NCBI GenBank assembly: GCA_029248665.1
Contig: JAQWIW010000021.1
Span: forward strand, 1-62,362
Reading direction: 5' to 3'
Length of the DNA: 62,362 bases
From: Opitutia bacterium
GTDB lineage: Bacteria; Verrucomicrobiota; Verrucomicrobiia; Opitutales; Coraliomargaritaceae
Position numbers and translations under genes: made by a program. The notes beneath the pieces were generated by a model. That model was not told where the DNA came from and did not search any database. It was given only the letters and a program-made list of their open reading frames with translations. Numbering within the stretch: the first letter of the stretch is position 1; each line of letters opens with the position of its first letter. Positions 21,222 through 41,703 of the stretch are shown here, piece by piece.

Positions 21222-22352
<1,131 letters not shown>

Positions 22353-31747: not shown

Positions 31748-33865
31748 TTATTTTTTAGGGTTATCGCGTGTTATGCTATCCATTCCAGGTTTGTCTAAAT
31801 TTATGTCTCCTTCAAAAAATCCGTGCAATTGTCGGATACGAGTTGGATGTCTCATTTTTCGCAAAGCTTTAGCTTCAATTTGTCTAATACGTTCACGTGT
31901 CACTTTAAATTGCTTACCGACTTCTTCCAGTGTTCTAGAATAACCATCAATCAGCCCAAATCTTAATGAAAGTACTCGCCTTTCTCGTTCTGTTAAGCTG
32001 TCTAAAACATCAGTAATTTTTTCTCTCAATAGGCTGTAAGCAGTAATGTCATAAGGGTTTTCCGCACCTTTATCCTCAATAAAGTCACCGAAATTAGTGT
32101 CATCTGAATCACCTACAGGGCTTTGTAATGAAATAGGTTGCTGAGCCATTTTCATAATAGATTGAACACGGTCAATGGGTAAGTGCATTTCTTCTGCAAC
32201 TTCCTCTGCAGTTGGTTCATGTCCCAATTCTTGTAAAAGTTGTTTCTGCACCTGCATAACTTTGTTCAAGGTTTCAATCATGTGAACTGGGATTCGAATA
32301 GTTCTTGCTTGGTCGGCAATGGAACGAGTGATCGCTTGTCGAATCCACCATGTTGCATAAGTTGAAAATTTATAGCCTCTACGATATTCGAATTTTTCTA
32401 CCGCTTTCATTAATCCCATATTGCCTTCTTGAATAAGGTCGAGGAAGGAGAGTCCTCTGTTGGTATATTTTTTAGCGATTGAAATTACTAAACGAAGGTT
32501 GGCTTCAACCATTTCAGTTTTAGCTTTATGGGCTTCTCTCAATCCTTGGCGTACTTCACTGATTATTTTTGCCAGCATCTCTGGATCAATTTTAAATTCA
32601 TCCCTCAATTGCAACAGTCGTTTTTTTGCTGCTTTTGTGTCTACTTTCTTTTTGCGTCGAGTAGAGATTTTTTTTACTAAAGATAAATCATCTACTATAT
32701 CGTTTATTTCTCGGTAGACTGGAAGTAGGTTATTGATGAAGTCTTCAAATACCTTTAATTTCAAGCAGTATTTCTTGAGGATACTTGAAAGCTCTACTTC
32801 ATATTTTTTCATACGAGTTTCAGCTCGTTTCTTATTGGATGGATTGGTGCTTGTCTTTATGGAATCCCATGCAGAGTAAATTTTAATCCCGAGCTTCTGT
32901 GCTTCTTCTAGGAATTTAGGAAGACCAAGAAAATAGGCTTCTCGGCTATCAATTTTCTTATCTAAGATTACACGATCAAAACGCTCTTCACGGTTGATCA
33001 GTTTCTGAATGATATTGTTTTGAAATTCTAAAGTCAGTGCAGTGGAGAATAGGGAATTTTGTGTTTTTAATTCTGCTTTCTCAATACGTTTAGAGATGGC
33101 AACTTCTTCTTCACGAGTCAAAAGAGGGACTTGTCCCATTTGCTTTAGGTACATTCTTACGGGATCATCCAAAATGTCATTTTGGGACGTGCGTACTTCT
33201 TTTTCTTCGGTTTCCTCTTGTCGTGCTTTAAAGGCTTCGACTTCGGTATCATTTAAGATATCGATTTCTAAATTCTGTAGAATTGAAATTACGTTTTCAA
33301 TATCTTCAGGATTATTAATGCTATTCGGTAAAGATTTGTTGATGTCTTTATAAGTAAGAAATCCTTGCTCTTTTGATTGGCGAATAAGTTCACGAATACG
33401 GGCATTTAATTTATCTTGAGATTTTGCGGATAATTTACGTTTTGTTTTCGGCTTGGCTGCTTTTCCCGCAGTTTCTGCTTTGACCGTTTTTTCTTTGGCT
33501 GATTTTTTGGCCGCTACTTTCTTAGTCGCTTTTTTGACTACGGTCTTTGCTGCCTTCTTAGTCGCTGTTTTTTTGGCTGCTGTCTTCTTGACCACTTTCT
33601 TCGCTGTCTTTTTGACTACTGATTTTTTGACTACTGATTTTTTGGCCACTTTCTTTGCGGGCTTTTTAGCCGTTGTCTTTTTTGCCACTTTCTTCGTGGA
33701 TTTTTTAGCCGCTACTTTCTTAGTCGCTTTTTTGACTACTGTCTTTTTGACAGCTTTCTTTGCTGGAGCTTTTTTAGCACTTACCTTTTTAGTAGGAGCT
33801 TTCTTTGTGGGAGCTTTTTTAGCCGCAGCTTTTTTTGCGACTTTCTTGGATTGTTTTTGTGCCAT
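31748..33865 (-). CDS. rpoD: Primary sigma factor RpoD (sigma-70) with a histone-H1-like Lys/Ala-rich N-terminal tail
   Basis: The housekeeping sigma factor. Sigma regions are complete: region 1.1 ([20 protein letters not shown]), 1.2 ([20 protein letters not shown]), 2 ([37 protein letters not shown]), 3 ([20 protein letters not shown]) and 4 ([20 protein letters not shown] and a C-terminal QLHGFF). Preceding region 1.1 are about 140 residues made almost only of K, A, V, T, S and P in repeats such as KKVAKK and AAKKAPTKK, like eukaryotic H1 or bacterial HU tails. The total is 705 residues, longer than usual. It lies 13 bp after dnaG, as in the macromolecular-synthesis operon, but rpsU is absent. 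Confidence 0.96.
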
Positions 33866-33878
33866 AATATAAAGGAAT

Positions 33879-35732
33879 TTACTGTATCGCTAAATTCTGA
33901 GTTTCAATCAATTCTTGATTAATCTGTTTAACTTTTTTCATCAATTCAATGAATTTCACATCATTTGAGTCAGTTTGTTGAATTTTTTGAGTTAATAGGG
34001 TTTTCTTTTGGTTAAGTGTATATTTTTTAAGGGTTCTTAGGCATTCATTGATAAGTTTGATGGGGTCATCGATATGAAGCTCTTTAGTGTGAATGTCGGC
34101 TAATAGTTGCCGTTCTTCATTTGTTTCAATAAGTGTCTCTGTGTCAATAGTATCAATGTTTGTTGTTTCATAAAACTCAGCGAGCAATTTAGATAAAAAT
34201 TTACCGGTTAGGCTCATCTTATGTATAGAATCAGAATCAATGGTATAAGCAATTTGTTTTCCATATTCAGGAAAGTTTAGAGCGAGATACAAAAGCTCCC
34301 AATGAGTTTGTGTCATGGGAGATTTCTCAACTGTTTTAGCAGGGGTTTCGACCAAGGCCACTGCATTGTTTTTTTGATAACTTGTTTGCCTTGCCTTGAG
34401 CTTTTTAAATTCAGAGAAATCTTTAATCAAACTTTGCATGCTTATTTGGGCATTTTTGCTAACTTCTTGCAGATAATCTTCTTGTGCAATTTCTGATTTT
34501 AAATGATTGAGCAATTCAAAGATATGTTTGGAGGCTTTTATTTTTTCTTGAGTGGAAGCGGCTGATCCTTTGGGAAGTAAGGTTTCTAGTAATAGTTGGA
34601 TAGGGCCAAAGGCATGAGTCCGCAATTGCTCAAGTGCTTCGATACCTTTGGTGCACAGTAAATCATCTGGATCACTTTTTTCAGGAAGCGTTAAATAGCT
34701 AAATTCGAGTCCCACTTTAAAGGTTAAAGGTAAAGTACGCAAAGCAGCTTTCTTTCCTGCTGAATCTCCATCAAGCAAGCATTCGATTTTTGAAGGCTCA
34801 TAGCGTCTTAGCAAAAGCAATTGTTCTTCGGTGATAGCGGTACCTTGTGGGGCAATGGCCGTATTCAGTCCAAGCGACCAACAACGAATGGCATCAAGTT
34901 GTCCTTCCACCAGTATGAAATAAGGTGTTGTTTTTAAATATTTCCGTGCATGCTCCATGCCGAATAATATTTTGCTTTTGTGAAAGAGTAGAGTTTCTGG
35001 AGAATTAACGTATTTGGCTTTTTGTGAAGGGTCGTCATCTGGAGTCTGCTCAAGTTGTCTCGCTGTGAAGGCGATCACTCTGGCGTTGATGTCTCTTATT
35101 GGAATCATCAATCGTCCACGAAATCGAGGCTTCAATTGATCGATTTGTCTCGCTCTTTCATTAGTGAAAAAGAGTCCAGATGCTTTCAAAGCTTCAATTG
35201 AAAATTGTTTCTTTTCGAGAGCTAGGCTAAGGGCTTTAGGGTTAGTTGGGGCGTATCCGATATTATATTCTTTCGCAACATCGAGAGAAAACCGTCTTTG
35301 ATTTTGCCAATATAAACGAACAGGTTCAGCTTCTTTACTTTGCATGAAATATTTATGGAACCATTCAGTAGCAAAGGAATGAATTTCTAGAGCTTGCTTA
35401 CGAAGTGAGAGCTCTTTGGGGCTTTGATTTCCCTTGTCGTATTGAATGGGAATGTTGAACTTTTGTGACAAGAATTCAACCGCTTCGTAGAATTCAAGGT
35501 TTTCAACCTTCATAATGAAGGAGTAACAGTCGCCACCTTCTCCAGTACTGAAGCATTTAAAAAATCCTTTATCGGGATGTACGTAAAAAGAGGGCGTTTT
35601 TTCCTGAGTAAATGGGCTTAATCCACTCCATGATCGTCCTGATTGCTTTAGTTGCACATAAGGCATTACCACATCAACTAGATTCAGTTGTGCTTTTAAA
35701 GTTTCAATGGATTGCTTAGAGATCGATGGCAC
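33879..35732 (-). CDS. dnaG: DNA primase with degenerate zinc-ribbon ligands
   Basis: Makes RNA primers at the fork. The N-terminal domain aligns with the primase zinc ribbon ([31 protein letters not shown]), but three of four zinc ligands are missing. The usual C, H, C, C positions read S, T, C, T. The TOPRIM core is intact: [60 protein letters not shown] and [16 protein letters not shown]. The 617-residue length is normal and includes the C-terminal helicase-binding region. It is downstream of a TPR lipoprotein and upstream of rpoD. Confidence 0.95.
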
Positions 35733-40359: not shown

Positions 40360-41703
40360 ATGAAACAAAGAACCCTTTCACGCGAAGTTTCTATAAAAGG
40401 TAAGGCACTTCACACAGGTGAAGAAGTCAATCTGACTATAAAGCCTGCTCCTGAAAATCATGGGATCGTTTTCAAGCGATTAGACCTTTATGGAAAACCG
40501 GTAATCAAGCCATTGATTGATTTTGTGGAGGATTTAGTCCGAAGCACAACAATTGCAGATGGACACACTAAAGTACACACAGTCGAGCACGTTTTGAGTG
40601 CTTTGAGTGGTTGCTCGGTGGATAATGTTTTGATCGAGATGGATGCCAGTGAGCCACCGATTATGGATGGCTCGGCAAAGCATTTTGTTAATTTAATCCA
40701 AAAAGGAGAACCTGTTGACCAAGAAGCAGATAGGGAATTCTATGCATTGGATAAGCCGATTTCTGTGACCAAAGGAAATAGTTCGATTATTGCCTTACCG
40801 CATGATGGTTTTAAAATCACCTGTACGTCATCGGATGATCGAGGTGTTCATACCCAACATTTGAGCATCGATATCGATATCGAATCTTACATCACCCATA
40901 TTTCGGCGGCTCGTACCTTTACCGTTTACGAAGATATTGAGGAATTAATCAAGCTTGGGAAAATAAAGGGCGGTACTCTAGATAGTGCGATTGTCATTAA
41001 GGGCGATAAGATTTTAACTAAGGAACCACTCCGTTATAAAGATGAGTTTGTTCGTCATAAGATTTTAGATATCATTGGTGATATTGTTTTGTTAGGCATG
41101 CCAATAAAAGCGCATATTATTGCAGTACGCCCTGGCCATGCTCTCAATGCACAACTGACTCAAAAAATTCGTGAAGCTCAGTTGGAAAGCATAAAAGCTA
41201 AGAAAAAACCAAAAGGAGTTTTACAAAAAGAAGTGGTAACAGGCGAAGTTTTAACGCCGACTGAGACTGCTTTAGATATCAGAGCGGTGATGGATATCCT
41301 GCCTCATCGTTACCCTTTTTTAATGGTCGATCGAGTGATTGAGGTTATTAATGAGAATGAATTAATTGCGATTAAGAATCTCTCAATGAATGAACCTTTC
41401 TTCCAAGGGCATTATCCGGGAATGCCCGTAATGCCAGGGGTGCTTCAAGTTGAAGCGATGGCACAAGCTGTTGGAATATTACTTTTGAAATTATGCCCAA
41501 TTGATGAATCCAAAGTCGCATTATTTATGAGTGCGAACAATGTAAAATTTAGACAGGCCGTTGTCCCAGGAGACACCTTAGAGATTCGTGCAAAAATCAT
41601 TAAAATAAAGGCAAAGAAACTCGCACAGGCAGAATGTAAATGCTTTGTTTCTGGAAAGCCTGTATCACAGGCAGAGCTTATGTTTTCCATTGTTGATGCC
41701 TAA
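40360..41703 (+). CDS. lpxC-fabZ: LpxC-FabZ fusion: UDP-3-O-acyl-GlcNAc deacetylase and 3-hydroxyacyl-ACP dehydratase
   Basis: Two enzymes in one chain. Residues 1-290 are LpxC, the committed lipid A step, with its zinc sites in [12 protein letters not shown] and [12 protein letters not shown] and the later PGH of [12 protein letters not shown]. Residues about 300-447 are FabZ, with [17 protein letters not shown] and the catalytic [20 protein letters not shown]. The short linker [13 protein letters not shown] separates them. The fusion is known from Bacteroidota and related groups and ties lipid A to fatty acid synthesis. lpxA follows after 20 bp. Confidence 0.96.

Follow-up and report, generated by a model that had tools for sequence, protein, structure and literature searches.

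DnaG is the enzyme that starts every DNA strand, and the dnaG gene in the 62,362-nucleotide stretch of DNA from a marine Opitutales bacterium analyzed here (the window) raises the question of what becomes of such an enzyme when the zinc site of its N-terminal ribbon is dismantled. Translated from a GTG start, the ORF (617 aa) reads [33 protein letters not shown], and at the positions of the four canonical ligands, C/H/C/C, it has S39/T42/C60/T63. Three of the four are thus replaced, as the initial annotation had read directly from the ORF, and the ligand set of a CHC2 zinc finger is absent. The most probable answer, to which we give a probability of about 0.78, is that an Opitutales bacterium here carries its ordinary replicative DnaG, in which the former zinc ribbon at the N-terminus now does without metal.

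Judged by its sequence and predicted structure, the protein qualifies as a DnaG primase on all criteria checked except the zinc ligands. Its N-terminus is recovered by the Pfam profile Zn_ribbon_DnaG (PF01807) with 106.4 bits against a cut-off of 24.9, and this homology is further attested by fold matches to 1d0q and 2au3. The same profile was matched just once in the 1.42 Mb, 97.8% complete genome, leaving this as the single detected DnaG. The core comprises DNAG_N (PF08275, 105 bits) and a TOPRIM domain (Toprim_2, PF13155, 55.7 bits), whose acidic residues (the E of VEGQLD and the DxD of LDGDSAG) belong to the invariant columns of an alignment with 40 relatives, in agreement with the earlier view that this core is intact. 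The C-terminal helicase-binding domain is detected by DnaB_bind (PF10410) at 21.6 bits, just above the cut-off of 20.6 and covering the first part of the domain, and its predicted structure matches the folds of 5z51 (Z 11.7), 2r6c and 9eco. The positions of these and other features are collected in Table 1. As a separate observation on the neighboring gene, the first 140 residues of RpoD form a long Lys/Ala-rich, histone H1-like tail preceding sigma region 1.1; it gives a weak HC2 match below the Pfam cut-off and looks unusual for a main sigma factor.

Table 1. Coordinates of the features discussed, in window positions
Feature	Position	Strand	Basis or remark
dnaG, DNA primase	33879..35732	(-)	617 aa; sole PF01807 match in the genome
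N-terminal ribbon domain (residues 1-101)	35430..35732	(-)	predicted fold that of 1d0q chain A
Ser39, replaces ligand Cys 1	35616..35618	(-)	S in 108/108 zinc-less; C in 104/104 canonical Verrucomicrobiota
Thr42, replaces ligand His	35607..35609	(-)	never H in zinc-less; H in 104/104 canonical
Tyr50	35583..35585	(-)	Y/F in 99/108 zinc-less; also in some canonical primases
Cys60, single retained ligand	35553..35555	(-)	Asp in 4/108 zinc-less
Ser62, replaces Gly of CFGCG	35547..35549	(-)	S in 108/108 zinc-less; G in canonical (A in two)
Thr63, replaces last ligand Cys	35544..35546	(-)	T/S in 108/108 zinc-less; C in 104/104 canonical
Cys69 of GGDC, suggested alternative ligand	35526..35528	(-)	C in 27/101; not conserved
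RNA polymerase domain with TOPRIM core (residues 112-430)	34443..35399	(-)	Pfam, alignment, fold match
C-terminal helicase-binding domain (from about residue 471)	33882..34322	(-)	weak in sequence; fold that of DnaG C-terminal domains
rpoD, directly downstream of dnaG	31748..33865	(-)	Pfam
tgt, queuine tRNA-ribosyltransferase	21243..22352	(+)	CxCxxC-H zinc site reduced to ADNYTC...H

The replaced ligands are not a peculiarity of one genome. The DnaG of MED-G32 (89% identical) has the same four residues at the ligand positions, and every DnaG read in family f1, to which the present genome belongs, is S/T/C/T or S/T/C/S. Across the order, all 101 aligned zinc-less proteins combine S39 with a non-histidine residue at position 42 and S/T63; they come from 27 GTDB families (f1, f3-f6, f62-f83) and one basal genus, g31 (L312, L313), of family f2. 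A search for the CPFH codon pattern over 214 Opitutales genomes gave 19 matches, all in f2, the named Opitutaceae and the same canonical clade, such that the C/H/C/C state was found within the order only in Opitutaceae other than g31. The other families read elsewhere in the phylum likewise have canonical ligands, except for f8 and f12, which are zinc-less and form a single clade with 100/100 support adjoining canonical families in the rpoB-rpoC tree. The same ligand change occurs separately in f8/f12, so that the phylum holds a minimum of one parallel to the Opitutales case. A phylum-wide search with a DNA pattern for the Ser codon, which also matches the TGC/TGT codons of Cys, gave nearly all canonical CPFH among the matches listed outside the class; canonical controls beyond the phylum consisted of some loci of other phyla and two Bacteroidales. 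The zinc-less DnaG is a variant form of a known enzyme that is stable through most of an order, being fixed across the Opitutales apart from most Opitutaceae, and a search of the open-licence PMC literature brought up no previous description of a zinc-less DnaG encoded on a chromosome.

How often the site was lost within the Opitutales was approached through species trees built from rpoB-rpoC (60 genomes, 2612 columns) and from rpoB-rpoC combined with the DnaG core. The careful rpoB-rpoC tree places the Opitutaceae near the base of the order; f2 groups with f79 in the best tree without firm support (78/39 and 89/71), while the zinc-less g31, which the genome collection files in f2, joins the crown Opitutaceae at 100/100 in both the rpoB-rpoC and the combined trees. 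On the best tree, the distribution inside the order takes a single loss plus a regain, or else three losses. Counting all changes, parsimony needs three with a regain and four with losses only, and a reversible model gains a small 1.67 log units over a loss-only one. A tree uniting all zinc-less Opitutales, with one loss in the order, is not rejected by the AU test (p 0.45), and the DnaG core tree alone does not place the Opitutaceae (AU p 0.51). Outside the ligands, the flanks of the crown Opitutaceae ribbon are closest to those of g31; hence nothing suggests that the crown Opitutaceae acquired the domain from elsewhere. That the Opitutales ancestor was zinc-less and that positions 39, 42, 62 and 63 later reverted to C, H, G and C in crown Opitutaceae is a tentative proposal that we consider rather doubtful. 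A stronger form of it, drawn from a quick-search rpoB-rpoC tree that nested the Opitutaceae deep among the zinc-less families, was abandoned when that tree proved, in its own AU test, to be 58.6 log units worse than another.

As to why the site was given up, other proteins of the lineage offer a pointer. RpoC was read from the rpoB-rpoC loci fetched for the species tree (L235-L294, the present genome's copy being L281). Its second zinc site (C814/C888/C895/C898 by the numbering of E. coli) is missing from all 48 Opitutales with coverage and is found in f7-f13, f16 and f25; the first site is intact in most, being gone in f64 (L254, L260) and one f63 genome (L258). The CxCxxC motif of the queuine tRNA-ribosyltransferase (TGT) is lost in 15/15 Opitutales and also in f7 and f11. 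The Cys4 finger of the NAD-dependent ligase LigA is lost in f1, including this genome (L385), f3, f5 and f63, and kept in f2, f62, f64, f68, f75 and f79; further LigA loci without it, from f1, f3, f4, f5 and f63, are L379, L383, L374, L389, L380, L393 and L388, and one f4 genome (G157) has one copy with the finger and one without. No earlier report of zinc loss in Opitutales RpoC or LigA was found in the open-licence PMC literature. Among ribosomal proteins, S14 was found near rpoBC only in five Opitutales, each time in the zinc-free (C-) form, and L33, L36 and L32 were not found in the sequence stretches near rpoBC. The S14 result agrees with a 2009 survey of 660 genomes, whose Table 2 gives the Verrucomicrobiae only C- forms of L32, L36, L31, S14, L33, S18, L28 and S4 (PMC3087516).

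Because RpoC site 2, TGT and, in this genome, LigA lack their zinc cysteines and the Verrucomicrobiae are known for zinc-free ribosomal proteins, the likeliest cause of the primase change would be a lineage-wide retreat from structural zinc, of which DnaG would be one case, as far as a partial survey of zinc sites suggests. This does not amount to a general purge of metal sites, since those of LpxC, the PilB Cys4 and the MutY Fe-S cluster are still present in the window. The window's LpxC, incidentally, is fused to a FabA/FabZ-like dehydratase domain (40360-41703(+)), and its zinc ligands are there.

The best-surviving alternative is that the change was specific to the primase, for example through altered start-site choice or the avoidance of oxidative inactivation, with the losses in RpoC, TGT and LigA being coincidental. 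It draws on f8/f12, which lost the DnaG site and kept the other three that were checked, so that loss of the DnaG site does not depend on the wider trend, and on the fact that the DnaG state splits crown Opitutaceae from the rest of the order, whereas the RpoC and TGT losses are common to both. Against it, three further nucleic-acid enzymes and the ribosomal proteins changing alike in one lineage argue for a shared cause, and we consider coincidence the less probable explanation, at perhaps one chance in four.

A second alternative leaves the ribbon with a metal, held through substitute ligands such as C60 with C69, Ser/Thr side chains, D68 or a partner subunit. The evidence comes from a single alignment in which 101 zinc-less Opitutales proteins and seven from f8/f12 were set against 104 canonical Verrucomicrobiota DnaGs. 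C60 is retained in 104 of the 108 zinc-less proteins and E/D/S/T residues lie nearby, yet C60 has become Asp in f5 and one f68 genome with the rest of the site unchanged. Position 42 varies, being mainly T/S/N/K/Q/A in the zinc-less proteins, and no fixed Cys or His other than C60 was seen near the site in the 108 aligned sequences. The initial annotation had proposed the Cys of GGDC as an alternative ligand; this candidate was rejected as the position varies, being C in 27, A in 20, V in 17, I in 17 and L in 14 of the 101 Opitutales proteins and V in all seven from f8/f12. On the alignment, a metal bound in the same geometry is thus unlikely, and we regard substitute ligation of any kind as improbable. 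The change itself has an all-or-none character: Ser62 co-varies fully with ligand loss within the phylum, and no protein with three of the four ligands was found among the 108 zinc-less and 104 canonical sequences. Codon 39 is AGY in nearly all zinc-less genes, one base from TGY. Tyr or Phe at position 50 occurs in canonical primases too, and this position alone is hence not diagnostic. Divergent DnaG-like N domains in a few genomes, recorded at L318 (G382) and L320 (G293), read SPFREDRSPSF and SPFREDKKPSF and are also without the first ligands; these are possibly mobile-element primases.

Could the N-terminal domain instead be a decaying relic no longer used in priming? Catalysis itself can do without it, in that T7 primase lacking its N-terminal domain still makes dinucleotides (review, PMC6163395). 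The conservation pattern is the converse of decay: from one zinc-less family to another, pairwise identity averages 0.69 for the loop, 0.44 for the polymerase domain and 0.27 for the C-terminal domain, against 0.63/0.46/0.27 for the canonical families of the class, from which it follows that the ribbon is constrained as strongly as one with zinc ligands. No other part of the protein is as well conserved. S39 and S62 are, moreover, invariant in 108 sequences, and no truncation of the N domain occurs among 40 aligned proteins, making the relic explanation very improbable. The predicted structure points the same way. The AlphaFold model (mean pLDDT 87.5), which was built without Met1 such that model residue n is protein residue n+1, has the ribbon strands in place; its ribbon superimposes on 1d0q chain A with Z 15.8 and an rmsd of 2.2 over 101 residues, and by Foldseek at 1.2 A over 92 columns with 43% identity. 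On whether the N domain would fold without metal, which the initial annotation had wished to see predicted, the model keeps the ribbon fold and is silent on metal-free stability, resting as it does on homologues that would yield a ribbon even if the fold needed zinc for its stability. Lastly, a sequencing or assembly error, or a phage primase taken for the host gene, can be set aside as having a negligible chance: C/H/C/C relatives do exist, among most of the Opitutaceae and in the remainder of the phylum, but this is a single-copy gene beside rpoD and the same residues recur in independent assemblies of many families.

These considerations return us to the metal-free ribbon. Where the two zinc knuckles C-P-F-H and C-F-G-C used to be, the protein now has GLSPF-T and KCF-S-T, and we propose that the loops would be closed by Ser/Thr hydrogen bonds and by packing around the conserved strands. 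The ribbon, probably devoid of metal, would still offer template DNA to the polymerase domain, just as it does in DnaG proteins elsewhere, and the likeliest reason for its emergence would be that nucleic-acid enzymes throughout the lineage have been giving up structural zinc. The suggestion first made for this locus, that the lineage primes with a zinc-free ribbon, thus emerges as the best-supported one, the state being fixed and all-or-none and the domain conserved and predicted to fold as a ribbon; the absence of the metal, the retained role in template handling and the cause are the parts that we infer.

Several known systems help place this enzyme. The canonical DnaGs of Aquifex (2AU3), Bacillus stearothermophilus (zinc-binding domain, 1D0Q) and E. 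coli share with it the domain order of ribbon, TOPRIM polymerase and helicase-binding domain, and the predicted ribbon fold is like that of 1D0Q; it differs from them in the replacement of three of the four zinc ligands and of the Gly of CFGCG. The C- ribosomal proteins are alike in that Cys ligands are replaced while the protein keeps its place, but some of those have C+/C- paralogues and a record of gene transfer (PMC3087516), whereas the primase is single-copy and its flanks look native. Mitochondrial Twinkle, a T7 gp4-like protein, belongs to primase-helicase relatives that also have changed primase motifs; in animal Twinkle primase function has been lost (PMC3610141), unlike in the Opitutales DnaG with its intact catalytic core.

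A conserved, apparently metal-free ribbon across an order, together with close relatives that have the zinc form, provides a ready-made comparison of the role of zinc in primase—one that could tell whether zinc serves as a structural pin or takes part in DNA recognition. Taken with the losses in RpoC, TGT and LigA, it points to a lineage whose information machinery contains unusually little structural zinc, extending beyond the ribosomal proteins for which this was known.
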